Below, one piece after another: positions 47,787 to 63,833 of a stretch of DNA of 64,000 nt. Both the position numbers and the translations under genes were made by a program. Position 1 is the first letter of the stretch. The number at the start of each line of letters is the position of its first letter. The notes under the pieces are model-generated. The model searched no databases and was not told the DNA's origin. It saw only the letters and a list, made by a program, of their open reading frames with translations. Source of the DNA: Candidatus Binatia bacterium. GTDB lineage: Bacteria; Vulcanimicrobiota; Vulcanimicrobiia; Vulcanimicrobiales; Vulcanimicrobiaceae. The stretch lies in contig DATKHY010000007.1 of NCBI GenBank assembly GCA_035544215.1, positions 62,001 through 126,000 of the forward strand, in the 5' to 3' direction.

Positions 47787-47862
47787 TCCCGGGTAGTTCA
47801 GCTGGAAGAACGGCGGCCTCTGAAGCCGCATGTCGGTGGTTCGAGCCCATCCCCGGGAGCCA
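47787..47862 (+). tRNA. tRNA-Gln(CTG)
   Basis: The acceptor TCCCGGG pairs with CCCGGGA. The D-arm is AGCTGGA, and the anticodon loop CTCTGAA reads CTG. The T-arm GGTGG-TTCGAGC-CCATC is intact. A 3' CCA is encoded at 47860-47862. Confidence 0.95.
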
Positions 47863-47863
47863 G

Positions 47864-47939
47864 GGCCCCATCATCTAGAGGCCTAGGATGCCGCCCTCTC
47901 ACGGCGGTAACGCGGGTTCGAATCCCGCTGGGGCTACCA
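47864..47939 (+). tRNA. tRNA-Glu(CTC)
   Basis: The acceptor GGCCCCA pairs with TGGGGCT with one G-T pair. The anticodon loop CTCTCAC reads CTC, and the T-arm contains GTTCGAATCCCGC. The encoded CCA is at 47937-47939. It starts 1 bp after tRNA-Gln. Its last 20 bases are repeated at 52731 and 59269. Confidence 0.95.
47916..47935 (+). repeat. att-like core, copy 1 (3' end of tRNA-Glu)
   Basis: GTTCGAATCCCGCTGGGGCT is the T-loop and acceptor of tRNA-Glu. It is identical at 52731-52750 and 59269-59288. An integrase remnant begins 97 bp beyond this copy. Confidence 0.85.
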
Positions 47940-48031
47940 CAAAAATCCCATATCCTATCAAGGTTTTTGCGCGCGCCGCCAAGTTTCGTCTAATTAATGT
48001 CTAACTGACGGTTCGCATTGCGTTTTTTGCC

Positions 48032-48720
48032 TTAACTCACCATCCTATCGAAGGCCTCCGCTGCGGCCAGATCCCGCTCCCGATAGACCGTGATATAGCG
48101 GTCGACCGTGATTGAGATCGTGCTGTGACCGAGACGCTGACTGATGACCTCGATCGGCACCCCGGATTTGGCCAGCAGCGAAGCATGGGTGTCGCGCAGG
48201 TCGTGCAGGGTGATCCGTGTGACCCTCGCCCGCTTGACCAAATCGCCAAACGCCTCGGCGAAGTTCCATGGCGGGATCGGGTAGCCGTCGGGCCTTGCGA
48301 AGACGAGATCTTCGTCATGGTAGGACTTGCGGAACGCGAGCTTCTCTGCCGCCTGAGCCGCCCTATGGGAATGCAGAATCGCGACGAGCTTCTGCGAAAG
48401 GCAGATCGTGCGCGGCTTCCCGCTCTTTGGCTCCTTGAACGAGAGCTGCCCGCGCGGGCGTCCGTGAGCGAGCGCGCGATCGTGGCGGTGGCGTCATTGA
48501 GATCGACGTCGCGCCAACGGACCGCCAGGATTTCTCCGCGCCGCGTACCGGTGAACGCAGCAAAAGCGACGGCCGGACAGAACGCGGGATAGGCTGAAAG
48601 ATAGCCGCGCTTGCGCGAGCGTTGCGTGGGACACCGAGCCTCCTTTAGTAACCGGCTCAGTTCGGCTTCGGATAGCACTGCTGACGCCGGCTTCCGCAGC
48701 CGTGGCAGATCGTCCGCGTC
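48032..48720 (-). pseudogene. Tyrosine recombinase (integrase), truncated and frameshifted
   Basis: The catalytic half of a phage-type integrase, read toward the tRNA. LSEAELSRLLKEA and AFAAFTGTRRGEILAVRW carry the first catalytic Arg. An extra GC in a GCGCG run after about residue 70 shifts frame. The other frame has FKEPKSGKPRTICLSQKL, then LHDLRDTHASLLAKSG (HxxR), LGHSTISITVDRYI and the stop. The N-terminal arm-binding half is missing beyond about 48720. It must have driven insertion at tRNA-Glu but cannot be active. Confidence 0.85.
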
Positions 48721-49040
48721 AAGTAGCAGCTGTGATCGACCGGCGCGGCATCGGCACGCTTCTGGTTCAGTGGAAGGGCGGATCGGCGTATCTCATCCGC
48801 GACGGGACGGCGCGGAGAATCGAGCGCGGCCGCCCGTTCGTGTCCGCCACGCTGACCGTTACGAAACTCTCCGCGCAGGGCGACCGCTTCGACTTCAACA
48901 TGTGGTGCGGCCGCGGAGCCGACCTACGAGGTCACCGTGAACGGCCGGCGCACGGACCGGCGGATGTACTCAGCTGACAATCCCGACCGCCCGCCGCCCG
49001 GAAGCCGCATCCCAAAGTGCGCTACACCATCGTTGTGAGC
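48721..49040. other. Stretch without a clear gene (possible phage-like remnant)
   Basis: Beyond the broken integrase, a plus-strand frame (about 48744-48977) has a beta-rich peptide, LLVQWKGGSAYLIRDG and FVSATLTVTKLSAQGDRFDF, that loses frame near 48910. It could be the remnant of a small protein. No family is recognised, and the rest shows no usable signal. Confidence 0.25.
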
Positions 49041-49255
49041 TTAGGATGACGAAGCGTCGTCGTCCGAGGTCGCGTCCGATGTTGCATCAGACGATGCGTC
49101 GGCCGTAACGTCCGGCGACGCGTCGGCAGTTTCGCCGCTCGGCGAACCGTCTTTCCGGCCTCGACCATCTGGGAGATGGTCTGCGCGACGTCGGCTAGGC
49201 TGGCGCCGTCGAGCGCCTGCGAGGCCCACTGCGTGTCGGTAAACGTGACTGCCAC
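49041..49255 (-). pseudogene. Small Ser/Asp-tailed protein gene, frameshifted
   Basis: From GTG at 49255, 4 bp after the stop of the next gene, one frame reads VTFTDTQWASQALDG, LADVAQTISQMVEAGK. A one-base shift near 49150 then gives GETADASPDVTADASSDA and a Ser/Asp-rich end SDDDASSS with a stop at 49041. This tail matches the Ser/Asp tail of the upstream neighbour, so the shifted frame is the likely original. The role is unknown. Confidence 0.45.
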
Positions 49256-49259
49256 AGCG

Positions 49260-49940
49260 TTAGTTCGACGAGTCGCTCGACGAGTCGCTCGACGAATCGC
49301 TCGACGAGGCGCTGCCGACACCTGACAGATCGGTGTCTTGAGTGCTGGGCGTGAGGATCCCGCCCTCGTTCGCGTCGAGCGACGTTACCGGCTCGAAGCC
49401 GGCCTTAACGAATTTATCGACCAGGTCGGCCATTTGCACGTTCTGATCGCCGGCGTTCTTCCATTGTCGCAACACCCACTCGCGGGTGTAGACCAGCGTG
49501 GGCGTCGTCACACCGTTGAGCCGCAGCGCGCCGGTGTCGTCGATCGGGTAGATCACGCCCCCGGACTTGAGGTACGCGTCTGCTGGGAGCTTCAGGTCGA
49601 GGTCGATGAGGCCGAACGCCACCGAGATCGAGGATCCGCCGGCATATTGCACGACGAGGCTCTCGTTGTCGAGCGTCTCCTCGAACGGGCTGTAGTCGGC
49701 GAGGTAGCATTTGACGATGTTATCGTCGACGTACGACGCCTTGAACTCGTCGTCGTCGATGTTACGGCAGTTCTTAGCATCGTCGTCCAAAAGATAGTAG
49801 GTGGGCGCGTTGACGGACGGTTGGGTGAGATTCGATCCGCCATGCGGATCGAATCCGAGCGCCTTGATCTCGTCGTCGGTGACGATGTGTGCTTGAACGG
49901 TGGTCGGGCTCGGTGTTGAGGTGCTGGCGGAATCGGACAT
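49260..49940 (-). CDS. Unknown protein with repetitive Ser/Asp C-terminal tail
   Basis: A 226-residue soluble protein with no signal peptide. The middle (YYLLDDDAKNCRNIDDDEF, LIDLDLKLPADAYL) is beta-rich. The last 15 residues are SSSDSSSDSSSDSSN. The tail is coded by a 12-base tandem repeat (GAGTCGCTCGAC) at about 49265-49312. It comes from the tRNA-linked element and matches no family I know. Confidence 0.6.
   Translation of the reverse strand: MSDSASTSTPSPTTVQAHIVTDDEIKALGFDPHGGSNLTQPSVNAPTYYLLDDDAKNCRNIDDDEFKASYVDDNIVKCYLADYSPFEETLDNESLVVQYAGGSSISVAFGLIDLDLKLPADAYLKSGGVIYPIDDTGALRLNGVTTPTLVYTREWVLRQWKNAGDQNVQMADLVDKFVKAGFEPVTSLDANEGGILTPSTQDTDLSGVGSASSSDSSSDSSSDSSN
49265..49312. repeat. 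12-bp tandem repeat coding the Ser/Asp tail
   Basis: About four units of GAGTCGCTCGAC with single-base changes, in frame with the 226-residue gene. Length variation would lengthen or shorten the tail by four residues a step. Confidence 0.7.
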
Positions 49941-50035
49941 GGTGCTCTCCTTACTGTGGCACTCGAAATCGAGCGAAGGGACGCGGGGCAGGCGCGCTTC
50001 AGGGCGCGCCCCGCCACGTCCTCCCGTCGGCGAAC

Positions 50036-50262
50036 TCAGCCGCGATAGGCTGCTCGCAGCGCGTTGATGTCGAGCTTCTCCATGCCCATCATCGCCTTCA
50101 TCACACGCGCCGACTTTTCCGGATCGTCGCCGCCGAACAGGTCGGTGAGGCCTGGGGCACGATCTGCCAGGTTACGCCGAACTTGTCGTGGGTCGAAGCG
50201 TCGTCGTGAGAAGCAACGTACCTGGCTTCGTCGAGGTCGAGCTGCCCTCAAACGGGCTGGAG
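50036..50262 (-). pseudogene. VOC/PhnB-like protein, 3' fragment cut by an IS
   Basis: The C-terminal end of a PhnB-type glyoxalase-fold protein: HDKFGVTWQIVPQA in one frame, then TDLFGGDDPEKSARVMKAM and MGMEKLDINAL in another, to a stop at 50036. A single-base shift lies between. The 5' part is missing beyond 50263, where an IS3-family end begins. Confidence 0.65.
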
Positions 50263-50263
50263 C

Positions 50264-51457
50264 TGACCTGAGGTTGCAAAACGGCTCAGGTTGAAACTGT
50301 GAGTTCCGGGCTACGGCCCAAGGAGAACTCACGTGAAGAAGAGTCGCTTCACCGAGGCGCAAATCGTCGCGATCCTCAAAGAGCTCGACGCCGGCACGGC
50401 CGCTACCGAGCTCGCCCGACGACATGGCCTTCACGCCAACACGATCCGACAGTGGCGAGATAGATACGCTGGGCTCGAAACCAGCGACCTCACGCGGTTG
50501 AAACAGCTCGAGGCCGAGAGCGCACGCAAGGATCGCGTGATCGCGCGACTGACCATGGAAGTTGACGCGGTCCGGGAGCTCATCGCAAAAAACGACTGGA
50601 GCCCTCGCAGCGAAAAGAAGCGGTGATGGCCTTGCAGGAGCACGGACTGTCGCAGGTGCGGGCATGCGCGATCGTCGGGCAGCCGCGACGCACGCTGCAC
50701 TACCACGGCAAGCCCAAGGACGATAGCGCGATCGCCGAGCGGACGCAGACGCTGGCACAAGAGCTCCCGCGGTGGGGTTGGCGCCGGCTGCTGATCATGG
50801 CGCGGCGCGGCGGCGTTGAGGTCGGTGAGTTTCGATTTCGGCGTATCTATCGGAGCCTGGCGCTGCAAGTGCGTCCGCGAAAGAAGCGCAAGGTCCGCTA
50901 CATCCGCGGCAACGTGGTTCCCGCCGTCTCGCGGCCCAACGAGCGCTGGTCGATCGACTTCCTCCATGACCGATTAGCGAACGGCCGCAACGTTCGGGCG
51001 ATCGCGATCGTCGATGACTTCACCCGCGAATGCCTTGCCCTGGAGGTCGGGTTCTCTTTTGGGAGCCACGACGTCATCCGCTGTTTCGAGGATCTCGCTT
51101 TTGAACGCGGGTTCCCCCAGACAATCCGTTTTGACAACGGCTCGGAGTTCACAAGCCACGCCATGCTGCGCTGGGGCGCTGAACGAGCGGTCCAGCTTCA
51201 CTTCATCGAACCGGGCAAACCGACCCAGAATGCCCAGATCGAATCGCTGAACGGAAAGATTCGTGACGAGCTGCTCAATGCACACAGCTTCATGACGATC
51301 TTTGAAGCTCGACGCGAGGCCGCCGAATGGCGGCAAGACTACAACGAAGTTCGGCCGCACTCTGCACTCGGCTATGGACGCCAAGGGAGCTCGCCGAGCA
51401 ACTTCAAACTAACCAACCCTCACAGTTATCACCTGCGTAGAATGCCACCTCAGGTCA
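50264..51457 (+). mobile_element. IS3-family insertion sequence
   Basis: An element of about 1.19 kb bounded by inverted repeats beginning TGACCTGAGG (left, 50264) and its complement CCTCAGGTCA (right, ending 51457). It holds orfA and orfB with a DDE integrase domain. Beyond the ends only a 2-bp GC is shared and no clear target duplication is seen. The orfB stop (TAG at 51463) lies in flanking DNA. Confidence 0.8.
50333..50626 (+). CDS. IS3-family transposase OrfA
   Basis: A 97-residue protein with an N-terminal HTH (RFTEAQIVAILKELDAG, then TAATELARRHGLHANTIRQW) and a C-terminal coiled coil (RLKQLEAESARKDRVIARLT) that dimerises. It is the DNA-binding part of the IS3 transposase. The stop overlaps the orfB start, so production may be coupled. 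Confidence 0.88.
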   Translation: MKKSRFTEAQIVAILKELDAGTAATELARRHGLHANTIRQWRDRYAGLETSDLTRLKQLEAESARKDRVIARLTMEVDAVRELIAKNDWSPRSEKKR

Positions 51458-51465
51458 GCGGATAG
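50623..51465 (+). CDS. IS3-family transposase OrfB (DDE integrase)
   Basis: A 280-residue protein. The rve domain carries the three acidic residues in RWSIDFLHD, IRFDNGSEFTS and NAQIESLNGKIRDELL, with the typical YNEVRPHSALGYG end. GTG at 50623 is followed at once by ATG at 50626. It runs past the right inverted repeat into the flank. The frame is intact, so this copy may still be mobile. Confidence 0.9.
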   Translation: MMALQEHGLSQVRACAIVGQPRRTLHYHGKPKDDSAIAERTQTLAQELPRWGWRRLLIMARRGGVEVGEFRFRRIYRSLALQVRPRKKRKVRYIRGNVVPAVSRPNERWSIDFLHDRLANGRNVRAIAIVDDFTRECLALEVGFSFGSHDVIRCFEDLAFERGFPQTIRFDNGSEFTSHAMLRWGAERAVQLHFIEPGKPTQNAQIESLNGKIRDELLNAHSFMTIFEARREAAEWRQDYNEVRPHSALGYGRQGSSPSNFKLTNPHSYHLRRMPPQVSG

Positions 51466-51491
51466 ATCGCCGCCGCCGCGAAGAGGTGCGC

Positions 51492-51926
51492 ATGTCGAAC
51501 TCATTGCGCGGCCTTCTCATCGTTTTGCTCAGCCTCGCCGCACTCGCCCGAATGGGCGCGGCCTCCCCGGCCTCCGAGGTCCTCCAGTTCAGCAGCCCGT
51601 CGCGCGGGATCGGGTGCGTCTATGCAAATTTCGGGACCGCGTCGCTGCGCTGCGACGTGCGCGGTGGCGTCGTCCCGCTACCGGCACGTGACCCCAAATG
51701 CCCAATGGAGGTCAATTGGGGGCAGGGCTTCGTCATGGGCGTGACCGGTCGGGCTAAGGTCGTCTGCGCCGGCGATACCGCAATGGGCTCAAATACGATC
51801 GTCGCGTACGGAACGACGTGGCGGCACGCCGGTTTCGTCTGCGCCTCCTCGACCGATGGGATGCGCTGCACGAACGAGAGCGGGCACGGCTTCTTCATCT
51901 CGCGCGGCCGAGCGTATCGTTTCTAA
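51492..51926 (+). CDS. Secreted DUF6636-like protein
   Basis: A 144-residue exported protein. Residues 1-24 are a signal peptide (LLIVLLSLAALARMGAASPA). The mature part begins FSSPSRGIGCVYANFG and has paired cysteines (VRCDV type: LRCDVRGG, ending VCASSTDGMRCTNESGHGF), as in DUF6636. AAGAGG at 51481-51486 sets the start at ATG 51492. The function is unknown. Confidence 0.7.
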   Translation: MSNSLRGLLIVLLSLAALARMGAASPASEVLQFSSPSRGIGCVYANFGTASLRCDVRGGVVPLPARDPKCPMEVNWGQGFVMGVTGRAKVVCAGDTAMGSNTIVAYGTTWRHAGFVCASSTDGMRCTNESGHGFFISRGRAYRF

Positions 51927-51983
51927 CGCGCGCCGAACAGACCAGACGCGCTGGACTAGACGCGCGTGTGACGGAGGGCAAAC

Positions 51984-52400
51984 ATGAATCAAAAGGATCG
52001 CGTAGAGATCGATCGTCTCGCTGAGGCGCTAACTGCGGCGTGGAATGCTGCAGACGGCGTGGCCTTCGCAAAAATGTTCACCGAGGACGCGGACTTTGTC
52101 AATATCCGTGGCGATCACTTTGTGGGTCGCGATACGATCGCAGAAGGACACCAGAGGATCTTTGACAGCATCTATCGCGACAGTCGGAACGTTTTTGCGA
52201 TATCGAAGATCCGGGAAGCTACCGGTGAAGTTGTCGTTGCTCTGATGGAGGCTCATTTGCATTGCCCGCAGGGACCCATGGCGGGAGATAACGATGCGAT
52301 TGCGACGGCCGTGCTGTGGCGCGAACCTTCTGGTTGGCGCATTGCTTCGTTCCACAACACACTTAAGCAGGGTCCCCCAGGCGCCCGACCCACTCGCTAG
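51984..52400 (+). CDS. SnoaL-like/DUF4440 (SgcJ/EcaC type) protein
   Basis: A 138-residue cone-shaped alpha+beta protein of the NTF2/SnoaL superfamily. EALTAAWNAADGVAFAKMFTEDADFVNIRGD is the family start (given here in shorter form as AAWNAADGVAFAKMFTEDAD), with WRIASFHNT near the end. Members include small enzymes and stress-related proteins. The next gene shows no functional link. Confidence 0.8.
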   Translation: MNQKDRVEIDRLAEALTAAWNAADGVAFAKMFTEDADFVNIRGDHFVGRDTIAEGHQRIFDSIYRDSRNVFAISKIREATGEVVVALMEAHLHCPQGPMAGDNDAIATAVLWREPSGWRIASFHNTLKQGPPGARPTR

Positions 52401-52423
52401 AGAGCTTTTTTAGCGGCTACCGG

Positions 52424-52602
52424 CTATATAAACAGTCGCCGTTCTAAGCTCGGGATCCGGACGTTTCCTCCCCACACGTCCATCGCGTTGGCAGGCGTTA
52501 CCAGGAAGCCGGCGTTCGGCCATCGATGGGCTCGGTCGGCGATCGTTTCGATAACCGGTGACCCGATCGCGATAGCGCAAGCGGGAACGAGCCCCTGGCT
52601 GA
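52424..52602 (-). pseudogene. Possible truncated gene end beside the att repeat
   Basis: One minus-strand frame, closed by TAG at 52424, reads AIAIGSPVIETIADRAHRWP then NAGFLVTPANAMDVWGG and RRLFI. It has coding texture but no start and runs into the repeat arm at 52603. It may be a gene cut by recombination. I recognise no family. Confidence 0.3.
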
Positions 52603-52730
52603 TTTTCTAACATTTTCTAACGGAGCGGTCGGGCATGGGCGGGAACGGACGGGAGCCAGAGCAGCGAAAAGCCCTACAGAATAACACGAATCGGTAGCGG
52701 TCGGGACTCTCCAGAACCCCCCGAGTTGTG
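52603..52730. repeat. Repeat arm flanking att copy 2
   Basis: Starts with two TTTTCTAAC units (52603 and 52613), then CGGAGCGGT, GCCAGAG, GCCCTACA, TCGGTAGCGG and CGGGACT in the same order as at 59131-59268. The two arms differ by scattered changes only. The TTTTCTAAC units could be arm-type integrase sites. Confidence 0.7.
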
Positions 52731-52750
52731 GTTCGAATCCCGCTGGGGCT
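52731..52750 (+). repeat. att-like core, copy 2
   Basis: GTTCGAATCCCGCTGGGGCT, identical to the end of tRNA-Glu. It is followed by a poly-T run and TTTCGTCCTTA, which copy 3 also has. It marks the junction of two stacked elements. Confidence 0.85.
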
Positions 52751-52843
52751 TTTTTTTCGTCCTTATTTTACAAGAAGTTCGCGACACCCGAGGCTCTGGG
52801 CATCAAGAGTGCATCAAACGCAGAGCCTCTTTTCCGCTGTGCC

Positions 52844-52912
52844 TTAGCCGACCAGGCGACCAAAGGCATCGGCCGCCTCGGCGTCTCGGCTCCGATAGAC
52901 GTGCAGGTAAAA
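52844..52912 (-). pseudogene. Tail of a second tyrosine integrase
   Basis: The frame reads FYLHVYRSRDAEAADAFGRL, VG and stop at 52844. It aligns with the end of the first integrase (ITVYRERDLAAAEAFDRMVS). Its stop is 94 bp past att copy 2, against 97 bp for copy 1. Upstream homology is lost, so only about 22 codons remain. Confidence 0.65.
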
Positions 52913-53164
52913 GGCTCGGCAGGCAGGCTTTGGTTTAACGCACTAAAGACTCGGATGTGATCTTCGATGCTGAATCTGTTGCGGGCGGTCGCTTTGAGCG
53001 TGTCGCAGACGGACGCGATCGCCGCGTCCGTTGAAGCGAGTATGAGAGAGCGCCGAATCCCGTCGGTCGATCGTCCTGTTGGCGGCCCTTCCAATCAGCA
53101 GTTCACAGCTACCCGTCGAAGCCAAATTAATCGGCTGGCTCTGGCAGGTGCCGTGCCGGCTGCG

Positions 53165-54343
53165 TTACGGAGTAATGGAAAACACGGTACCGCCATTATG
53201 CGCGCCGCCTTGTTTCGTCGTCCCGTAGAGTGTCCCATGTACGTCGAGCAGGCCTGCGCGGGGAAAACCGCCCTCGGTTTCCTCGCTGAAGCTGTGCAGC
53301 ACCTTCTCCGTGCCCCCCGTCGTGATGCTGAAGACCGTACCGTTATGATGCGCGCCGCCGTCCCTCGTCGTCCCGTAGAGCGTGCCACTTACGTCGAGCA
53401 GTCCTGCGAAGGGCACGATGCCGTCGCCTCCATCGCCGAAGTCGTGCAGCACCTTCTCCTTGCCGCTCGTCGTGATGCTGAAGACCGTGCCCCTTCCATG
53501 CGCGCCGCCTACAGCTGTCGTCCCGTAGAGCGTGCCACTTACTTCGATCAGGCTTGCGACGGGAAGCCTGCCGTCGGTTCCCACGCCGAAGCTGTGCAGC
53601 CCCCTCTTCAAGCCGCCCGTCGTGATGCTGAAGACCGTACCGGCATGATGCGCGCCGCCATCCCTCGTCGTCCCATAGAGCGTGCCACGTACGTCGAGCA
53701 GGCCTGCCTCGGGACCACTGCCGTCGGTTCCTTGGCCGAAGCTGTGCAGCACATACTCCGTGCCGCCCGTGATGAAGAACACCGTGCCCTTTCCGTGCTC
53801 CCCCCCTAGGGCCGTCGTCCCGTAGAGCGTGCCACCTACGTCGAGCAGACCCGCGACGGGGTCCCTACCGTCGGTTCCCTCGCCGAAGCTGTGCAGCACC
53901 TTCTCCTCGCCGCTTCTCGTGATGCTGAAGACCGTGCCGAATTTATGCGCGCCGCCTTTATCCGTCGTCCCGTAGAGCGTGCCGTTTACGTCGAGCAGGC
54001 CAGCATAGGGGTGACGGCCGGTTCCCTCGCGGAAGCTGTGCAGCACCTTCTCCTCGCCGCTTGTCGTGATGCTGAAGACAGTGCCGTCATCATGCGCGCC
54101 GCCAAGACGCGTTGTGCCGTAGAGCGAGCCACTTACGTCGATCAGCTTTGCAAAGGGGTGGTACCCGGCGGGAGGCCCTTTAAAGCTATACAACACACTG
54201 AATGCCAGCGGCCTTTCCAAGCGCTGGTCAGCGCTGGCGTTTGGGGGGTACTGGAAGGGCGAGACTTGCGCCACTTGCGAGCATGCCGCAACAGCGACGC
54301 AGCAGGCGAATAGTCCGAACCGGCTCAAACCGGAAGCCTTCAT
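53165..54343 (-). CDS. GloVer tandem-repeat lipoprotein (1)
   Basis: A 392-residue exported lipoprotein (lipobox VAVAAC). After a 45-residue linker come about seven repeats of 46-47 residues, each with LLDVxGTLYGTTxxGGAHxxGTVFSI and KVLHSF (seen here in pieces such as GTLYGTTRDGGAHHNG). This is the GloVer repeat, which likely forms a beta-propeller. A good AGAGGAG site precedes the ATG. It lies 80 bp after the S9 peptidase on the same strand. The DNA repeats produce long meaningless frames on the other strand. Confidence 0.9.
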   Translation of the reverse strand: MKASGLSRFGLFACCVAVAACSQVAQVSPFQYPPNASADQRLERPLAFSVLYSFKGPPAGYHPFAKLIDVSGSLYGTTRLGGAHDDGTVFSITTSGEEKVLHSFREGTGRHPYAGLLDVNGTLYGTTDKGGAHKFGTVFSITRSGEEKVLHSFGEGTDGRDPVAGLLDVGGTLYGTTALGGEHGKGTVFFITGGTEYVLHSFGQGTDGSGPEAGLLDVRGTLYGTTRDGGAHHAGTVFSITTGGLKRGLHSFGVGTDGRLPVASLIEVSGTLYGTTAVGGAHGRGTVFSITTSGKEKVLHDFGDGGDGIVPFAGLLDVSGTLYGTTRDGGAHHNGTVFSITTGGTEKVLHSFSEETEGGFPRAGLLDVHGTLYGTTKQGGAHNGGTVFSITP

Positions 54344-54423
54344 TTGCTTTGCTCCTCTTTCTGTTCACTGACTGGAAACTTTGTGGCCATGCCGGCAGCG
54401 TGGCGTGACCAACGAACCGGCAC

Positions 54424-56436
54424 TTATGCGTGGCTCTCCGGGGCCAAGTAGCGGTTGAACCATTCTATCATCTGGGCAAGAGCGTCGATCTGGTCGGTGA
54501 CTTTCTGCAGCGCATGACCTTCGTCGGCGTAGACGATGAGCTTTGTGGGCACACCAAGGGTTACCATCGCATGCCAAAACTCGAACGCTTGCGGCACCGG
54601 AACTTCCTCGTCGCGCTCGGGCTGCAGTATGAGCACTGGCGTCTTCGAGCGCGTGATGAACGTAATCGGTGAGCTCCGCGCATAGATGTTGGGGTTATCA
54701 TAGACCGTGGTTCCGAAGAAGGGAATCATCCACTGATCGATCTTGTTTTGACCGTAGTACGATTGCCAGTTGCCGATGCCGGCACCGGCGACGATTGCTT
54801 TGAACCGGGTCGACTGCGTCTCCGCCCACATCGACATGTAGCCGCCGTAGCTCCAGCCAAAAAGTCCCAGACGCTTCGGATCAATTGGTGCGGCGGCTAG
54901 AGCCGCGTCGATGCCCGCGAGATCGTCGCGCCAATCGCCGTAGCCGAAGTCCTTGGCGTTGGCTTTCGTAAACGCCTCACCGTGGCCGAAGCTGCCCCGC
55001 GGATTTGGCATAAAGACGAAATAGCCCGCAGAAGTGAGCGCGTCATAGCCATATGAAGCGAGCGCCATCGCGAAGTGATCGCCAAAACCCGGCACTGTTT
55101 CGGCGGAAGGTCCGCCGTGAATGATCGTGACCATCGGATAGGTCGCGCGTGGATCGAAGTGCAGCGGATAGACGAGCCAGCCTTGGACCGTAAGCCCATC
55201 GCTCTTCCACTGAAGCGATACGGCTTTACCGTGAAGCGGCATTGCGCCGGCGTTGCTGTGAGAAATTTGTCGCAGCTCTGTCGGCGGCCCGGCCCAGACT
55301 TCGGGCGGATCCGCAAAGGAGGCGCGCACGAGCGCGACGATCGAGCCGCCCTTCGCGCTCGACCAGCTCCAGAGCGACTCTTGGCGATCGGTCAGCACGG
55401 TCGCGCGGCCACTGGACGCGTCGACTCGCATGAGGTGCATCGCGCCGGAGACGTGCGCCACCACGTCGAGGCTCGATGAATCGTTCCAATGCAGCGACTG
55501 CACTGAGAACGGCGCGCCGTCGGTCACGTTGCGCGACACGCCCGTCTGCGGGTCAACGAGGTAGAGGTCGCCTCCGACTGACCCGAAATCGCTCATGATT
55601 CCGCCGATGACGGCGATCTGGCTTCCGTCGGGCGACCATTGCGGATCGTTCATCTGAAAGTTGGGTGCGAGCACGTCATGCATCGCGCCGGTCGCAACGT
55701 CGACGCGCGCAAGGTGCGCGATCCACCAGTTGTTGTTGCCGTCCCCCGTCGCGTAGGTCGCTGCAATCTGGCCGCTGTCGGGCGACCATCCGTATTCGTA
55801 TACGTAGACGTCCGGGGGCGTGAGCAGACGGAGCGCACCACTGCGAGCATCGATCGTCGCAAGGCGCTGTTCGTCCACCACCGTGCCGATCACACCCACG
55901 TTGCGCGCGCCGGGTGCGAGCGCCCCTGCTCCACGATGAGCGTCGGCGATATAGAGAATGGCAAGCGACCTGCCGCTCGGCGCCCACGTTAGCCGCTGCA
56001 CGTTACCGCTGAAGCGTGCCAACTGATGCAAGCGCCGGCCGCCGGCGTCGGCGACGAAGAGCTGGACCTGTCCCTTCGACCGCGCGTCGGAAAGAAACGC
56101 AATCCGGCGGCCATCTGGCGCCCAGACCGGATTCTTCTCGTCGTAGTACGCGTCGCGGCCGCCCGCGCTCAAACGGAGCCGTCCCCCACCATGGAGTCGT
56201 TGCACGTACAAAGCGCTGTACTGCGGCGATTGCAAAAGCCGGTTTCGATCGTAGAAGGCCTCCTGCCACGCGACCGCGCTGCCGTCCGGCGCAAGGTCGA
56301 CCCCACTGAGGTCGCGCACGGCATATGCTGCGATCAAGGCCTGCCGAATCGAAGGCGCGGCCGCAGTGCCCGCGACGCCTAGAATCGCGAACGCCGCGAT
56401 GGCGATCGAACACGCGCGATAGATTAGGTTAACCAC
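54424..56436 (-). CDS. S9 prolyl-oligopeptidase family serine peptidase
   Basis: A 670-residue exported enzyme with a signal at residues 1-26. A seven-bladed propeller (PVWAPDGRRIAFLSD, WSPDGSQIAVIGG) covers about 40-400. The alpha/beta hydrolase domain has GWSYGGYMSMWAE (nucleophile), QPERDEEVPVPQ (Asp) and ADEGHALQK (His), with HGGPSAET as the oxyanion region. Dipeptidyl or acylaminoacyl peptidase activity is expected. Start GTG at 56436, 4 bp after the next GloVer gene. Confidence 0.92.
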   Translation of the reverse strand: MVNLIYRACSIAIAAFAILGVAGTAAAPSIRQALIAAYAVRDLSGVDLAPDGSAVAWQEAFYDRNRLLQSPQYSALYVQRLHGGGRLRLSAGGRDAYYDEKNPVWAPDGRRIAFLSDARSKGQVQLFVADAGGRRLHQLARFSGNVQRLTWAPSGRSLAILYIADAHRGAGALAPGARNVGVIGTVVDEQRLATIDARSGALRLLTPPDVYVYEYGWSPDSGQIAATYATGDGNNNWWIAHLARVDVATGAMHDVLAPNFQMNDPQWSPDGSQIAVIGGIMSDFGSVGGDLYLVDPQTGVSRNVTDGAPFSVQSLHWNDSSSLDVVAHVSGAMHLMRVDASSGRATVLTDRQESLWSWSSAKGGSIVALVRASFADPPEVWAGPPTELRQISHSNAGAMPLHGKAVSLQWKSDGLTVQGWLVYPLHFDPRATYPMVTIIHGGPSAETVPGFGDHFAMALASYGYDALTSAGYFVFMPNPRGSFGHGEAFTKANAKDFGYGDWRDDLAGIDAALAAAPIDPKRLGLFGWSYGGYMSMWAETQSTRFKAIVAGAGIGNWQSYYGQNKIDQWMIPFFGTTVYDNPNIYARSSPITFITRSKTPVLILQPERDEEVPVPQAFEFWHAMVTLGVPTKLIVYADEGHALQKVTDQIDALAQMIEWFNRYLAPESHA

Positions 56437-56440
56437 GTAA

Positions 56441-57664
56441 TCAGTTTCCCGACAACGAGTAGATCGTGCCGAAGTTGTGTGAGCCGCCCTTTTGGGTAGT
56501 GCCGTATAGCGTTCCGCCTATGTCGATCAAGCCGGCCTCTGGGCGTGAACCGTCGGTCCCGCCGGCAAAGCTGTGTACCACCCGTTCCACGGGGCGCGTT
56601 GACAATTCGATTGTGAAAACCGTGCCCAGGCCGTGCGCGCCGCCGTCTTCGGTGGTGCCGTACAGCGTGCCGTTAACGTCGATCAGACCGGCTTTCGGGT
56701 GCGCGCCGTCGCTGCCGCCGGCGAAGGTATGGAGCACGCTGTATTCCATGCCATCGGGCTTCATTTGAAAAACCGTGCCGAGGCCAATGCCACCCTCTTC
56801 GGTCGTGCCGTAGAGCGTGCCGCCGATGTCGGTAAGGCCGGCGTATGGCCGCGCGCCGTCGCTTCCGCCACCAAAGCTATGCAATGTTTTCACGCCGGCC
56901 AGGTTAGTTTTAAAGACCGTGCCGTGTTCCGACACGCCGCCGCCTGCAGTCGTTCCGTATATTGCGCCGTTCACTTTGATCAAGCCGGCAACCGGGTGCG
57001 AGCCCGCAGGTTTGCCGTGAAATGCCTCGAGCGGCTCGTAAATGTGATCGTTTATCGAAAAGATTGTGCCTTCGTACCTGCCACCATAGCCGGAAGTCGT
57101 GCCGAGGAGGCCAAAAGTCGATTTGAGTAGGCCGCCGATGGGCCTTTCACCGTCGAGGCCACCTTCGAACCTATGAAGAACCCTTTCGGTGCCGCCGGTT
57201 GTGATTGAAAAAACCGTACCCCCTTCGCCAGAACCACCCTCTTCGGTCGTGCCATAGAGCTTGCCGTCCATGGCGGTTAAACCGGCTCTTGGGCCATTGC
57301 CGTCCCTCCCGCCGGCAAAGCTGTAGAGCGGGGTTTCCTTACCGGCGGGCGTGATCGCGAAGACACTGCCAAAGTGCCTAACGATATCCCCGTAGGTCGT
57401 GCCGTACAGTGTGCCGTTGAGTTCGGTGAGACCGGCACGCGGAAACCTGCCGTCGCGACCGCCTTTGAACTGGTAGACCACATCGTAACTCGAGTTCGGC
57501 TTGAGCGTCATCGCTCGGGCCAACCGGCCGAACGAAGGTTGCGAGCGCAGAGAAGGCGTGAGCGATCCGCGAGCCGGTGTGAGGTTCGATTGGGGCGTAC
57601 CCGAACAAGATGACAGCGTCAGAATCGTGACGGCGACAAGCGCAGCAAACGATCGTGCGTGCAT
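56441..57664 (-). CDS. GloVer tandem-repeat lipoprotein (2)
   Basis: A 407-residue lipoprotein. ATG at 57664 has AAGGAG 5 bp upstream; the signal ends LTLSSC. Eight or so GloVer repeats follow (GTLYGTTEEGGIGLGTVFQ, AGLIDVNGTLYGTTEDGG). It is more divergent than the repeat protein at 53165, notably the repeat reading FGLLGTTSGYGGRYEG. It lies 4 bp upstream of the S9 peptidase and is probably cotranscribed with it. Confidence 0.9.
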   Translation of the reverse strand: MHARSFAALVAVTILTLSSCSGTPQSNLTPARGSLTPSLRSQPSFGRLARAMTLKPNSSYDVVYQFKGGRDGRFPRAGLTELNGTLYGTTYGDIVRHFGSVFAITPAGKETPLYSFAGGRDGNGPRAGLTAMDGKLYGTTEEGGSGEGGTVFSITTGGTERVLHRFEGGLDGERPIGGLLKSTFGLLGTTSGYGGRYEGTIFSINDHIYEPLEAFHGKPAGSHPVAGLIKVNGAIYGTTAGGGVSEHGTVFKTNLAGVKTLHSFGGGSDGARPYAGLTDIGGTLYGTTEEGGIGLGTVFQMKPDGMEYSVLHTFAGGSDGAHPKAGLIDVNGTLYGTTEDGGAHGLGTVFTIELSTRPVERVVHSFAGGTDGSRPEAGLIDIGGTLYGTTQKGGSHNFGTIYSLSGN

Positions 57665-57836
57665 CGGGACTCCTTCGTACAAACCCACAGGACAAGGGGC
57701 GCCAATACGCCGTTCACGATCGGCGCCTAAGTGCACTCTCGCGGCACCAGGCGAAGCACCACGATGTGTCATGCGTCTGGGAGTCGGAATCGACAACGAC
57801 TAGACCGCGCCACCGTTGTAGCCTGCATTGGCGTAG

Positions 57837-58826
57837 TTAATGAGGGTCACAGAGCGCCTTGGCGACGATGATGAAGCCGTCATCATTGTCCTCCGGCCCG
57901 CGAACCATATGCACCGCGCACGCGCCCGGTTCCGCGTAGCTCGATCCGCCTCCGCCGCCACCATCAATTCGAAACCGATGGTCCGGGTCTGCATTGTTGC
58001 CTGTGCCGCCGCCGCCGCCAAACAAACCGCCGCCACCACCACCGCCGCCCCAGAGTCGTTTAGCTGTCTCCGAGGCTTGACCGTCGCCGCCATGACCCGC
58101 GACGCCAAAGCCGCCCTGGTTTGTACCAAACTTCCCGCCGGCGCCACCGTGAGTCTGAGCACCACCGTGACCGCCGCCCTCACGGTCGTATTCACTATCG
58201 CCGCGCGCACCGGTGAGAGGACCCCCGTCGCCCCCTTTCCAGCCGCTGCCGCTTTGCCCGCCGCCACCGCCCGCGACGATAAGGCGCTGGTCCAGCTTGC
58301 CGGCAGGGCCGCCCCTACGCACGTCGGAGGCGCCGCCCCCACCGTACCCTACGTGGCTGCCTATCTCGCCGCCAGGTAGTCTGTCTCCGCCATTACCGCC
58401 GCCGTTCCAACCGCCTTTGCCCCCCTTTACGGGGTTACATTTTCCTTCCGGAGACGCTCGGCTTCCATCCAGAGACGCTCGACACACTGGGCCGTGAGCG
58501 TGCCCTCTCCCGCCCACGAAGATGCCCAATTCTTCGCCCGGCTGCACTTTAATTGTAGCGTCTACCGCTCCGCCTGGGGCGCCGCGCGTATCTCCAGCGC
58601 CGCGGCCGGCATAGAGAAGGAATCGCAGGGCGTGGACGCCGGCGGGCACCGTGTAGGACTGAGGCCCTCCGGTAAAATCGAAGCGTTTTGTCTCAACCGA
58701 AGGTGTCACGCCGTCGCGCGCGATCGCCGGCACCGAGCTCGCCCCGCTAAGGGGAGTCGCGCCGCCGCAGGCAGACAGGATGATCGCGCTAAGACACGCG
58801 CCGAGAAGGATGGACACTCGTTTCAT
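57837..58826 (-). CDS. Glycine-rich (ALK-type TG domain-like) lipoprotein
   Basis: A 329-residue exported lipoprotein (lipobox IILSAC). It opens with a jelly-roll-like start (FDFTGGPQSYTVPAGVHAL, RFLLYAGRGAG). A long glycine-rich domain follows (GYGGGGASDVRRGG, LIVAGGGGGQ, GGGGGGLFGGGGG), ending GGGGGGSSYAEPG. The layout matches the polyglycine-helix domain of ALK-type receptors and bacterial surface proteins. The start is ATG at 58826. It belongs to the second tRNA-linked element. Confidence 0.8.
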   Translation of the reverse strand: MKRVSILLGACLSAIILSACGGATPLSGASSVPAIARDGVTPSVETKRFDFTGGPQSYTVPAGVHALRFLLYAGRGAGDTRGAPGGAVDATIKVQPGEELGIFVGGRGHAHGPVCRASLDGSRASPEGKCNPVKGGKGGWNGGGNGGDRLPGGEIGSHVGYGGGGASDVRRGGPAGKLDQRLIVAGGGGGQSGSGWKGGDGGPLTGARGDSEYDREGGGHGGAQTHGGAGGKFGTNQGGFGVAGHGGDGQASETAKRLWGGGGGGGGLFGGGGGTGNNADPDHRFRIDGGGGGGSSYAEPGACAVHMVRGPEDNDDGFIIVAKALCDPH

Positions 58827-59130
58827 TAGGTCTCTAGCTCCAAAATCGACGCCGCGCCTGCTGCGCATTGTCTGGGAGCAGCGTTATCGAAGCCTAAGCC
58901 ACGATCGCAGGCTGCCTTCGAGGGGATTGGCGCCGCCAGAAAGCCGCAATGCGCAAAGCCAAAACTCGGCGCATGAGTATGCCCCCGCCCTATTCTACTT
59001 CTTGCCGCGGTTTTTGCCAACCAACCTAAGCGCTGTGGAGCTTAAATCCAACGAGCAGCGAGATTCGCGGCGCCGCTTCGAAATGGCCACGCTACTCCAC
59101 GGCGTCCTGCCCGGGCGGCCGACTGGAACA
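58827..59130. other. No gene seen
   Basis: This stretch lies between the glycine-rich gene and the second repeat arm. Frames here are short, and no start with a ribosome site is apparent. Confidence 0.4.
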
Positions 59131-59268
59131 GTTTCTAACATTTTCTAACGGAGCGGTTAGAAACGGGCGGTATTGGTTGGTACAGGTCGGGAACCAGAGT
59201 GGTGAAAAAGCCCTACAAAGTAATACGTTTCGGTAGCGGACGGGACTGGCCGGAAACCCCCTTGTAGA
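59131..59268. repeat. Repeat arm flanking att copy 3
   Basis: Homologous to 52603-52730. It has TTTCTAAC at 59131 and 59141 and an inverted GTTAGAAAC at 59156-59164, giving a 9-bp inverted pair (GTTTCTAAC/GTTAGAAAC). The later segment shares GGAGCGGT, CCAGAG, AGCCCTACA and CGGTAGCGG with the first arm. Confidence 0.7.
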
Positions 59269-59288
59269 GTTCGAATCCCGCTGGGGCT
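59269..59288 (+). repeat. att-like core, copy 3
   Basis: GTTCGAATCCCGCTGGGGCT, the third copy of the tRNA-Glu end. It is followed by ATTTATTTCGTCCTTA, matching the TTTCGTCCTTA after copy 2. It is the distal boundary of the stacked elements. Confidence 0.85.
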
Positions 59289-59418
59289 ATTTATTTCGTC
59301 CTTAACGCACGCAACCACCGCCGCAGTCGACGGAGCACGATCAAAGGCGCGAAGGCTCTTGATGACCTGGACGGGGCGTTAGTTAAGGGCCATAAATCTG
59401 AATAATGAAACCTTCAGC

Positions 59419-59579
59419 CTAGCTTCGACGCCGCTTCTTTGATCGCCCCAGATAGTCGCTAAGCGACGTCGCTCCTTCGCGTTCCAATAACGTGTCGAGG
59501 CGCATATCGGGGCGGTGTCCTTTCGCAAAGCTTTCGCCATAGGTTTGACGTAGCGTGCCCACGAGCGTATCGCCTGATA
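59419..59579 (-). pseudogene. Short unknown gene end truncated by an IS
   Basis: About 52 codons to a stop at 59419: TLRQTYGESFAKGHRPDMRL, DTLLEREGATSLSDYLG, then a basic tail. The frame enters the insertion-sequence end at 59580, so the original start is lost. It resembles small regulatory or antitoxin-like proteins in size only; no firm family. Confidence 0.4.
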
Positions 59580-59627
59580 TGACCCCCTCGGGAGCTGGAC
59601 ACCTGATAAGCGAAGTGAAGGTGTTCA

Positions 59628-60011
59628 ATGAGAAAGCGATCGCAATCAGTTTCGCCACCGGCTCCCGAGCCGGAAAGGTTCGAGCGATGGACCGCGCAGC
59701 GTAAAGCAGCGATCATCCTCGACGTCCTCAAAGGCAAAATCTCCGTGCCCGAGGCGGCGCGCAAATATGGCTTCAGGCAATCAGAGTTCCGCGAATGGAC
59801 GGAAGAGTATCATCGTGCCGGCGTCGACGCGCTCAAGGTGAACCGCAAGGGCCTTGAAGCCGAGTACCGAGCCGAGGTTAAACGGCTCCAGGCCAAGATC
59901 GGCGAGTTGGTCATGGAGAACGAGATTCGAAAGGAGGCGATGCGTCCTTTCACTTCAGTCGAGCCGATGTTACCCGGCTCTCTGCTCGACGAGGATGGCC
60001 AAGAGCCGTGA
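59628..60011 (+). CDS. Transposase OrfA of the second IS
   Basis: A 127-residue protein with an HTH region (WTAQRKAAIILDVLKGKISV, PEAARKYGFRQSEFREW) and a long helix (KGLEAEYRAEVKRLQAKIGE). It is the DNA-binding half of an IS3-class transposase. ATG at 59628. It overlaps orfB by 4 bp. Confidence 0.82.
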   Translation: MRKRSQSVSPPAPEPERFERWTAQRKAAIILDVLKGKISVPEAARKYGFRQSEFREWTEEYHRAGVDALKVNRKGLEAEYRAEVKRLQAKIGELVMENEIRKEAMRPFTSVEPMLPGSLLDEDGQEP

Positions 60012-60802
60012 TTTGCCGGATCCTCGGTGTCGCGCGCAGCACCGCATACTACCGCGAGCACGATCGCGTGCCGATCGTCGATGAGGTGATGGCTCAACGC
60101 ATCAAGCACCTCATCGACGCTGAGTCCTATTTAGGTTATCGGATGGTCTGGGCGCGGCTGCGCCGACAGGGATTCGAGTTCAACCGCAAAGCCGTGCAGC
60201 GTATTATGCAGCTCAAAGGCTGGCAGTGCCATCGCCGCCTCAAGAAACGCTGCTCTCCTCGGGTTGAGTCAAGCCCAAGCGTTGCTCTGGTATCTGACGT
60301 ACGCTGGGCGACGGATGCAACCTATGTCTGGACTCGTCTCGATGGTCTGGTTTACGTCAGTGCCGTGCTGGATTGTGCCGATCGGCAGTGTATTGGACTG
60401 AACGTCAGCCAGCGCAACGACGCACGCGAGGCGGCCTGAGCACTTGAAGACGCACTGATTCGGCGATTCGGCGCTCTACCAAAGGGCGACGCCGACGTTA
60501 CGCTGAGAACCGACAACGCGCTGGTCTACGCCTCGGAGCTCTATCGCGAGCTGGCGAAATCCTACGGTTTGCATCACGAGTTCATTCTTCCGCACACGCC
60601 CGAGCAAAACGGCGTTGCTGAATCGTTCATGGGAACGCTAAAGCTCGAGTGCGTCTGGCAGCACCGCTTCGAAACGTATGAGGCGGCGAAGGCAATGATC
60701 ACGGCATGGGTTAAGCATTACAACGAGGCGCGACCGCACTCGCGCCTTGACTATCTACCGCCGGTCGAATGGCGCCGCCGGCAAGCCGAAATAAGCGCCT
60801 AA
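60008..60802 (+). pseudogene. Transposase OrfB of the second IS, interrupted by TGA
   Basis: The frame from 60008 has TDATYVWTRLDGLVYVSAVL (first Asp). It stops at TGA 60437-60439 after NDAREAA, then continues in the same frame: LRTDNALVYASELY (second Asp), NGVAESFMGTLKLECVW (Glu) and YNEARPHSRLDYL to 60802. A TGG tryptophan is the likely original codon. The full DDE set exists only if the TGA is read through. Confidence 0.85.
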
Positions 60803-60825
60803 TCTGTCCAGAAACCGCGGGGTCA

Positions 60826-60992
60826 CATCACAACGTCGCTGTTTAAAAGCTCCGTGCAGCAGGCGTTGCTGGCCATCGTCGCCGACGGTACGTAGGACAA
60901 GCTGGCTGCCCAGTGACCTGGAGTCGCTTTCAGACCACTTAGCGCTGCTCTGGATATCGACTCAAGAGGCAGGTGATCCGCATACTCTACGT
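60826..60992. other. Spacer, possible gene scrap
   Basis: A minus-strand frame here reads LKATPGHWAASLSYVPSATM, which has coding texture, but it has no recognisable family and runs into sequence shared with the next frame. It may be a fragment. Confidence 0.2.
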
Positions 60993-61379
60993 ATGCCTTT
61001 GAACAAAAAGGCCCAGTGGAGGTGCGTTTTCCTCGTCGCAGTGCTCGTAGCGGGCCTGATGCTATCCTTGCAGGCAACTCCGAGCATCGCACATACAACT
61101 GCAAAGGCTGCCCCTACGCATAACTGCCAAGAGCCATCGGCTTACCAGCCGATCAGAGAACGTGGTCTAAAGAATGAGAAACGCAACGCTGGCAGTTCGC
61201 GAAGTTGTCGGCACCAGCCGAAGGCTCAGGAACGCGCAGCCGATTTTTGGCAAAGCGAGGAGGGCCGCCGGCTAATCGAGGAGGGGCGCCAGCTTGATTC
61301 CAATCCGAACGCAGATGCTTGCCTAACGTACGAGGGCGAGTATATACGCCAGAGTAAGGCCTGTCCAGAGCGCGTTTAG
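60993..61379 (+). CDS. Possible small secreted protein
   Basis: A 128-residue frame from ATG 60993 with a plausible signal segment (CVFLVAVLVAGLMLSLQATP). The charged remainder (EGRRLIEEGRQLDSN, CLTYEGEYI) shows no family. A minus-strand frame overlaps its start, so coding is uncertain. Confidence 0.35.
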   Translation: MPLNKKAQWRCVFLVAVLVAGLMLSLQATPSIAHTTAKAAPTHNCQEPSAYQPIRERGLKNEKRNAGSSRSCRHQPKAQERAADFWQSEEGRRLIEEGRQLDSNPNADACLTYEGEYIRQSKACPERV

Positions 61380-61500
61380 TGGGAGCAAAAGGCGAGAAGG
61401 GCCGCGGGCTTAATGCAGATCCCATAGAGAATCGCCCTGTGGCACAGACGATGACTATGCCGAGGGTAAGGCGTGTCGAGGGCCGGCCCGGTTCAGTCGC

Positions 61501-61990
61501 CTAGACGACGATCCCGAGCGATTCGGGACGATGGGAACGCGTGTGTTCGTATCGACGCCAGGCCGGTGCGAGACGCACGATGCCGGCCTCGATGATCGCC
61601 GGGGAAGCGGTATACGAAAGGCGGACGTATTCCGTACAAGACCCATCTATAGTCATGGAACTGCCGGGAAGGATACGCACTCCCTCGCGCGCGGCAAACT
61701 GCGCGAAGGATGTTGCATCTCCAGATGGTAGTCGCACCCACAGACATAGGCCGCCGGACGGCTTTTTAAACTGCCATTGCGGCAATTGCTCAGCTAGACG
61801 CTGGCAAAAAAGCTCGCAGTGGTCCTCAAGCTGGCGCCGGCGAAACGTGGCGATCTGGTCGAACGACTCAAGGACGCGCAAGGCGAGAACTTGCGAAGGA
61901 ACGGACGTTCCTAAATCGGACAGCACTTTCAGTCGACCCAAGCGGGCGGCAATGCTCGTCGAGGCGCGGATCCATCCGACATGGATCCCC
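61501..61990 (-). pseudogene. MocR-type (GntR/aminotransferase) regulator, 3' fragment
   Basis: The aminotransferase end of a MocR regulator: GIHVGWIRASTSIAARLGRL, KVLSDLGTSVPSQVLA, PSGGLCLWVRLPSGDATSF, ARE GVRILPGSSM. The HTH, the PLP lysine region and all upstream parts are missing. The break is near 61990, so this is a truncated remnant. It would once have sensed PLP or an amine. Confidence 0.7.
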
Positions 61991-62007
61991 GTTAAGATGC
62001 AGACCAC

Positions 62008-62195
62008 TTATCTGCAATGTGGCCATCGAAGTACCTGGCGCGTTGTGTATACTCATGTGAAGTGGCCGTCTATCGAACCCGGCATATCGAGTCTACGGTT
62101 ACTACATTGTAATGCGTACCTTTGGGCGCGATCAAATAATTTTGAGACCTCCATTTAGCGTATTCTCGTTCTCGGGAAAGTCAGGTTGAGCTGCA
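62008..62195. other. No gene seen
   Basis: A short stretch between the MocR fragment and the next gene. It is AT-richer toward 62100-62170, which may include a promoter, but no clear -35/-10 pair is called. Confidence 0.3.
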
Positions 62196-62939
62196 ATGGC
62201 AATCAGAAAGCGCTATTTACTAATAAGACGCTCATTTCGAGGCCTTCAGGGCTACGTTGGTCTTCTCGCAGCGGCTCTGTCGGTCATGAGTTGCGTGGAA
62301 GCGAGCGCGCACATGGCGTCGTACCCGTCAATGGCACCCATTGACACATATCTATCGCAAACCGCTGTGGACGAGATTGGACTCGCGCGTAGCGCGGGAC
62401 CGCCATCCATCTCGAACGACGCCGAAATCCTAACGCTGGGCGTTCACGGCTACAGCCCGGCAGTCAAGGGAAGGAACGGATTTGCGTGCATCGTCGAACG
62501 CGCATGGTCAATGGCATTCGACGATCCCGAGTTTTGGAATCCTCGGGTGCGCGCACCGATATGCTTCAATGCCGCCGCAACGCGATCGGTCCTTCCGGAG
62601 TACCTCATGCGCACGAAATGGGCATTGTCGGGAGCGAGCCGTTCGAAGATGGTCTCACTCGTAAAGGCGGCCGTTGCGTCGCACGAGATCACCGCTCCCG
62701 AATTCGGTTCGATGTGCTACATGATGTCGAAACGAGGATACCTGGGAGACGATGTGGGCGGCCCATGGCACCCACATTTAATGTTCTTTCTTCCTCGCAT
62801 GGCGGCTAACCAATGGGGCGCAAACCTGCCGGGCTCGCCCGTAATGGCTGGCGTCAAGCGCTTCGAGCCTACGACCGTATTTCTCGTGCCGATCGCAAAA
62901 TGGTCTGATGGGTCTGCCGATGGCCGCCAGCAACCGTAG
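62196..62939 (+). CDS. Conserved secreted protein of unknown function
   Basis: A 247-residue exported protein with a signal segment near residues 18-40. The mature part keeps blocks I associate with a conserved hypothetical family in soil bacteria: MAPIDTYLSQTAVDEIGLAR, EILTLGVHGYSPAVKGRNGF, DDPEFWNPRVRAPICFNAAA, SMCYMMSKRGYLGDD, WHPHLMFFLPRMAANQWGAN and VFLVPIAKWSDG. Its function is not known. It is intact, unlike its neighbours. Confidence 0.75.
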   Translation: MAIRKRYLLIRRSFRGLQGYVGLLAAALSVMSCVEASAHMASYPSMAPIDTYLSQTAVDEIGLARSAGPPSISNDAEILTLGVHGYSPAVKGRNGFACIVERAWSMAFDDPEFWNPRVRAPICFNAAATRSVLPEYLMRTKWALSGASRSKMVSLVKAAVASHEITAPEFGSMCYMMSKRGYLGDDVGGPWHPHLMFFLPRMAANQWGANLPGSPVMAGVKRFEPTTVFLVPIAKWSDGSADGRQQP

Positions 62940-62996
62940 CGCACCGCCGCGGCCTTCTCGTTTTGTAATTGTCGGGCGCAGCCTCAGGCGGGAAGT

Positions 62997-63115
62997 CCCC
63001 GGTTGTCGGTTCCCGTCGTCGCAGTCACGGCATCGGAGATGCTGTTCACGCATGCCGATCTCAAGTCCGGCGAAACCGTGCTGATTCAGTGCGCGTCTGG
63101 GGACGTCGGCGGATA
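62997..63115 (+). pseudogene. Quinone oxidoreductase-type dehydrogenase fragment
   Basis: In one frame: LSVPVVAVTASEMLFTHADL, KSGETVLIQCASGDVGGYA. This is the cofactor-binding start of a zinc-type quinone oxidoreductase (normally GAAGGVGxYAVQLA). Homology ends near FRTV on the right and at the left edge, so only about 40 codons survive. Confidence 0.6.
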
Positions 63116-63256
63116 CGCCTTTAGGACGGTCTGCGCCATGCGGTGCGATCCTGATAGACACGTCTCTGGAGAGATCATGGCGAAGATCGCGTTCGCTCTT
63201 TCCATACTGTCTCGCGCTATTGCCCACCGGGGCTCAAGCGAAAAGGAGCCGTTCTG

Positions 63257-63820
63257 ATGTTTATCGCGAGAGTATTCCTGTCTCTCTGTGTCGGCCTGGT
63301 TCTGGTCGCACCGTGCGCGGGCTTAACGCAAACCAGCGCGGCGACCCCCCTTCCCGTTATCGTGATCCCCAAAGCGGATCTCTCCTCGATGAACTTCCTG
63401 GTCGGCACGTGGTCTTGCAGCAAGCAAGAATCGGGCCTTCCCGCGCCGTACACGGCGACGGTAACCTATGCCGTGAGTCCGGATGGCCGGTGGATCGAAC
63501 AGACATCGGTTTGGGATCCCGTTCCGTGGTTTCCAAACAAGTGGACTTCCAACGACAAAATCACTTACGATGCATACACGAAACGCTGGGTCGACGTGGA
63601 GTACGACGAAATCGGCGGATATTTCCTCGCGACGTCTCGTGGCTGGGCCGGAAACACGATCGTGTGGCACGACCCTACCTTCACGCCGAGCCCCAAGGTC
63701 GCGTCAGCAACCGATACCACGATGACGAAAGTCAGCGACTCGAAAGTGACATCGACATGGTCGATCACCAAACCCAATAACGAGATCATCTCCGCGAATA
63801 CCACCTGCACGAAGAGCTAA
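63257..63820 (+). CDS. Secreted DUF1579-like protein
   Basis: A 187-residue exported protein with a signal to about residue 28. The mature part starts with a lipocalin-like pattern (LSSMNFLVGTWSCSKQESG), has WIEQTSVWDPVPWFPNKWTS and ends in a terminal Cys-containing TTCTKS. GTWxC at the start of a small beta-barrel is typical of DUF1579 and related families. AAAGGAG lies 9 bp before ATG 63257. The function is unknown. Confidence 0.7.
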   Translation: MFIARVFLSLCVGLVLVAPCAGLTQTSAATPLPVIVIPKADLSSMNFLVGTWSCSKQESGLPAPYTATVTYAVSPDGRWIEQTSVWDPVPWFPNKWTSNDKITYDAYTKRWVDVEYDEIGGYFLATSRGWAGNTIVWHDPTFTPSPKVASATDTTMTKVSDSKVTSTWSITKPNNEIISANTTCTKS

Positions 63821-63833
63821 TCCTACGGTGAAC

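Follow-up and report, generated by a model that had tools for sequence, protein, structure and literature searches.

Layered remnants of probable tyrosine-integrase elements downstream of a tRNA-Glu(CTC) gene

Genomic islands of the type catalogued by Islander/TIGER (PMC4383910) have an intact tRNA gene, a displaced 3′ tRNA fragment as a direct repeat and a tyrosine integrase gene next to the tRNA, and arrays at a single tRNA are included. In 2168 genomes, Islander recorded 125 tandems of two or more islands and only 4 of three or more; as its rules are stricter than those applied here, these figures provide context and not a like-for-like test. In the accretion of CIMEs, as set out in a review (PMC5704250, citing Pavlovic 2004 and Bellanger 2011), an element integrates, decays with its att sites kept, and a new element then enters an att site. 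In SGI1 tandem arrays (PMC2297512), several copies of one element are stacked at one attachment site.

The locus described here lies next to a tRNA-Glu(CTC) gene in contig C7 of the genome (G000) of an uncultured soil bacterium, and the window, i.e. the whole stretch of 64000 nucleotides that was analysed, corresponds to C7:62001-126000. As in Islander-type islands, an intact tRNA gene, tRNA-Glu(CTC), is found at one end, four displaced 3′ tRNA fragments follow in the same orientation, and the island is absent from the same site in two relatives, G005 and G007. However, Islander requires an integrase for each member, whereas the five tRNA ends (cores) present here belong to members most of which have lost it, and a second five-core array is present in the same genome. 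The three steps of CIME accretion correspond to those proposed for this island, and unit 1, between the first two cores, has kept both arms and cores while its integrase is broken and no transfer genes were found in a scan of its cargo. The island differs from CIME accretion in that no conjugation genes were found and that one core-to-core segment combines arms of different types. Segments are stacked at one site as in SGI1 arrays but are decayed and carry unrelated cargo, and repeated copies of one island were ruled out because cargo differs from segment to segment. The kind of structure is thus already known, as tRNA islands and CIME-type accretion; what is notable is its depth and a right arm shared with other sites.

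The target and the cores within the window are as follows.

47787-47862, + strand: tRNA-Gln(CTG) (ARAGORN), neighbour of the target; the same tRNA pair is kept in relatives
47864-47939, + strand: tRNA-Glu(CTC), intact, the integration target (ARAGORN, Rfam RF00005)
47915-47935, + strand: core 1 (attL), the tRNA-Glu 3′ end, by sequence match
52730-52750, + strand: core 2 (attR of unit 1 and attL of the next segment)
59268-59288, + strand: core 3, with 1 mismatch in 21 nt and the 20-nt core exact
59289-64000, no strand: start of segment 3, which runs to core 4 at C7:128436

A first-pass annotation of this DNA had reported three identical 20-bp copies of the tRNA-Glu end at 47916, 52731 and 59269, and these are exact, with GTTCGAATCCCGCTGGGGCT found without mismatch at 47916-47935, 52731-52750 and 59269-59288. 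No copies are expected from shuffled sequences (n=100), even when 3 mismatches are allowed. In the whole 3.23 Mb assembly, the 21-nt end of tRNA-Glu(CTC) occurs five times (≤2 mismatches), each time on the + strand of contig C7 and within 22 kb. The starts are at C7:109915, 114730, 121268, 128436 and 131830, and the array spans C7:109915 to 131850, with cores 4 (which would be window position 66436) and 5 located beyond the window. Repeats common throughout the genome would have spoken against integration, and the confinement of all five copies to one 22-kb stretch does not do so. From the tRNA outward, the mismatches over 21 nt number 0, 0, 1, 1 and 2, and this rise provides a rough stratigraphy of the insertions. 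The cores are T-arm ends, and likeness to the rest of the tRNA stops beyond the 20-21 bp. No core copy was found at the outermost edge of the island, where a 17-bp partial match at ~C7:139488 was only suggestive of a sixth core and was left out of the count.

The extent of the island was obtained from relatives. The genome of G005, which belongs to the same genus, aligns to that of G000 until C7:109936 (the core end) and resumes at C7:155712, with 946 bp between these points, and the genes of the right flank lie 3.7 kb from the tRNA in G007 and <1 kb from it in G011. The island is therefore ~45.8 kb in G000, with its right edge near C7:155711, against 0.95 kb at the same site in G005. In G007, the core is followed by that genome's own ACCA and a hairpin resembling a terminator. 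Near-empty sites, which the annotation had proposed to look for, are thus found in G005 and G007, though that in G005 is not pristine, the 946 bp there resembling the scar of a left arm. The last 24 kb of the island include two orphan right arms that have no core, at C7:132928 (GTCAC type) and C7:138161 (TTTCTAAC type). Counting right ends, namely those at cores 2, 3, 4 and 5 (the arm at core 5 being weak) and the two orphans, we infer at least six insertions. The stacking that had been proposed from the window therefore holds, but the number of two elements was an undercount, as the window edge cut the array.

The arms, integrase remnants and cargo genes of the first two segments are listed below.

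47989-48005, + strand: left-arm direct repeats TCTAAT and TCTAAC, starts 11 bp apart, in the layout and spacing of most left arms in relatives
48032-48731, − strand: tyrosine integrase remnant (catalytic domain), with a frame break near 48454-48460 and ~165 N-terminal residues missing
49260-49940, − strand: 226-aa protein, unit 1 cargo, no Pfam match
50333-51465, + strand: IS3-type transposase pair in unit 1 (HTH_Tnp_1 and rve, Pfam)
51486-51926, + strand: DUF6636 protein, unit 1 cargo (Pfam)
51984-52400, + strand: DUF4440/SnoaL-like protein, unit 1 cargo, the final gene before the right arm (Pfam)
52604-52729, + strand: right arm of unit 1, with TTTCTAACA/TTTCTAACGG repeats 10 bp apart and a conserved module
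52800-52816, + strand: left arm of segment 2, which is of another type, with GCATCAA repeats at 11-bp spacing (compare L063)
52844-52909, − strand: 21-residue integrase C-terminal tail, which matches the end of the L063 integrase (396-aa frame, G016) at 100% identity
53165-54343, − strand: secreted protein with ~50-residue tandem repeats, segment 2 cargo, no Pfam match
54424-56436, − strand: S9 family (prolyl oligopeptidase) peptidase, segment 2 cargo (PF00326, 9e-44)
56441-57796, − strand: second tandem-repeat protein, segment 2 cargo, no Pfam match
57837-58868, − strand: glycine-rich secreted protein, segment 2 cargo (PF12810)
59132-59267, + strand: right arm of segment 2, TTTCTAAC type

Left arms, which lie to the right of a core, in most cases include a pair of short direct repeats that begin 11 bp from each other and lie ~50-75 bp from the core, and in most cases these are followed by the end of an integrase gene that reads toward the tRNA. 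Right arms, to the left of a core, carry two repeats 10-11 bp apart at ~115-135 bp from it. The repeat words vary by element (TCTAAC, GTCAC, GCATCA/GCAACA, GTTGCC and others). As TCTAAC is found on both sides of unit 1 (the ~4.8-kb cargo unit proposed earlier), this unit looks like one element. The arms of segment 2 differ (GCATCAA on the left, TTTCTAAC on the right), so that more than one element probably contributed to it and the definition of the proposed second unit of ~6.5 kb needs revising; core-to-core segments are hence not all single elements. At core 4, the left side shows GGTTGCC and the right side TCTAAC together with an integrase tail of 24 residues; no clear right-arm repeats were seen at core 5.

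Integrase tails adjoin cores 1, 2 and 4 and point toward the tRNA, and no recognisable tail was found at cores 3 and 5. Tyrosine integrases are represented in this island by remnants only, while long open frames occur at the same tRNA in relatives. The first remnant, with its stop codon 97 bp past core 1, matches the 445-492-aa frames of relatives over 140 residues at 64% identity and over 87 residues in the other frame at 57%. It includes PF00589 matches (Pfam, own genome) at C7:110080-110430 and 110409-110675, retains the motifs LHDLRDTH, LGHS and RY in its C-terminal part, and is 85% identical to a frame adjoining a copy of the same core in the MAG palsa_1529. Remnants ending 97 and 94 bp past cores 1 and 2 had been recorded in the first-pass annotation; the first is well supported and the second consists of the 21-residue tail only. 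A tree of 26 integrase C-termini was used to ask if arm type tracks integrase descent better than target does, but both cluster (6 and 4 changes on the 26-tip tree) and no contrast is claimed.

In unit 1, the IS3-type transposase pair is probably a later insertion. The two secreted proteins of segment 2 that lack Pfam matches are encoded by ~150-bp tandem repeats (window 53172-54160 and 56477-57472), and similar tandem repeats were seen by the second array, at C7:385582-386652.

In same-genus genomes with a readable site, the left neighbours of tRNA-Glu(CTC), a nucleotidyltransferase-like gene and tRNA-Gln, are kept, and the DNA downstream differs. At this tRNA, G003 carries a gene for a 406-aa integrase; 11.7 kb further on, another core copy is followed by a second integrase remnant, and a third core copy is present as well. 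Intact-looking integrase frames of 426, 439 and 412 aa are found at the same tRNA in G014, G016 and palsa_1529, respectively. As the G003 integrase is missing some conserved residues, it may also be decaying. The 11.7-kb element of G003 further encodes a phage-type replication-initiation protein, HTH proteins, a second tyrosine recombinase and a DUF4238 protein. Integrases in plasmid and phage records were mostly distant, with <40% identity in the best matches listed. The encoded CCA of tRNA-Glu(CTC) in relatives (L079-L094) is present or absent according to which element adjoins.

The right arm is the part of these units that recurs. Homology over ~150 bp, mostly without the cargo, was detected in seven genomes, next to unrelated cargo and four tRNA ends, those of Glu-CTC, Glu-TTC, Leu-UAA and SeC. 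In G000, copies of the TTTCTAAC arm at C7:387284, 388271 and 404612 each run into the end of tRNA-Leu(UAA), and a copy at C7:1625875 runs into that of tRNA-Glu(TTC); in G026, this arm is joined to a tRNA-SeC end. Identity of the arm between units is ~70-94%, with different cargo, and some of the genomes sharing it show 72-76% identity in the DNA that flanks the tRNAs. These values would fit movement between species, though the arm may be conserved for other reasons. A stretch of ~1 kb in the island (C7:153320-154366) is 78% identical to DNA immediately to the right of the tRNA-Leu core in G014 (contig C90), and cargo thus appears at different tRNA sites across species.

The second array consists of five tRNA-Leu(UAA) ends in a single orientation on the − strand of C7:387152-407077 (L017, L018), and its units are 1.7, 0.86, 16.3 and 0.99 kb. 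The two short ones have one small gene each, measuring 859 bp from core to core with a gene for ~125 aa and 987 bp with a SnoaL-like gene. The shared right arm and these very short single-gene units merit specialist attention. At tRNA-Glu(TTC) (C7:1618257-1626031; L019), a core copy is located 7.7 kb on with the same right arm, and the cargo includes FAD monooxygenase-like and hydrolase-like frames recognised by eye, with no integrase match.

The locus is very probably a genus-wide integration hotspot where tyrosine-integrase elements were stacked at tRNA-Glu(CTC) and then decayed. Site-specific integration with tandem accretion, as first put forward for the window, is borne out by cores confined to this region, integrase tails, paired arms, integrases at the same tRNA in relatives and near-empty sites. 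Recombination by an element's tyrosine integrase would take place between the ~20-bp core and the tRNA-Glu(CTC) 3′ end; with every insertion, the tRNA would be rebuilt and a core copy left at the far side of the element. A newcomer would use the core proximal to the tRNA and displace older elements outward, and in the residents truncation, frameshift, deletion and IS insertion would then remove the integrase and interior genes. The youngest insertions would thus lie nearest the tRNA, and the segments would no longer be mobile by themselves. Duplication of the tRNA region through ordinary recombination, without integrases, can also give rise to tRNA-end repeats, but is very improbable here, as only 20-21 bp of the tRNA and never the remainder were copied, and all copies share one orientation and are flanked by specific arm modules and integrase tails. 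It is unlikely that the segments are mostly non-autonomous units of core, cargo and ~150-bp right arm, some with a single gene, inserted by integrases acting in trans and not derived by decay from complete elements. A constant arm that is the sole conserved part of many units, with unrelated cargo and at least four tRNA ends, would agree with this, as would the short tRNA-Leu units. However, integrase C-terminal tails past several cores, including one in a 987-bp unit, fit decay of complete elements, and many segments are without the left-arm repeats that an integrase would need. Were it true, Ca. Eremiobacterota would have a tRNA-based equivalent of gene cassettes. The hallmarks of an integron cassette array are attC sites and an IntI integrase; in the present system, the cores are tRNA T-arm ends and the integrase seen in relatives belongs to the phrog_1 type.

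Compatible with stacked insertion is the possibility that the parent elements were prophages or phage satellites and not plasmid-like or mobilizable elements, which appears tenable but somewhat doubtful. The G003 element has an integrase assigned to phrog_1 (PHROGs), the phage-type replication-initiation protein and HTH proteins that are repressor-like, and a contig in the IMG/VR viral set (3300035704_000306; L197) carries this Glu(CTC) core together with a left arm of the GCAACA type and an integrase at 59% identity. Against this, virion and packaging genes, by which a prophage would be recognised, were matched neither in the G003 element (10 proteins scanned; Pfam, PHROGs) nor among the island proteins (Pfam only), and the stretch of the viral contig that was read has beta-propeller-like cargo resembling the host's own (by eye); the viral label of this contig is doubtful. 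Relaxase and transfer proteins, expected of an ICE or IME, were likewise without a match among ~20 proteins of the region and the 10 of the G003 element. For a phylum known mainly through metagenomes, the locus is an example of deep, layered accretion at tRNA genes. Most of these layers would escape island-finding tools in which each member must have an intact integrase. The use of one right arm with several tRNA ends also makes integrase target switching with kept arm sites testable.

The tRNA-Leu(UAA) gene at the second array (C7:407056 to ~407390, − strand; L018) is split, at the position in the anticodon that is classic for such introns, by a sequence resembling a group I intron, recognised by eye from the exon sequences and group I core motifs; ARAGORN and Rfam gave no match for this split gene in G000. 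In the same-genus relative G009 (L040), tRNA-Leu(taa) is called uninterrupted.
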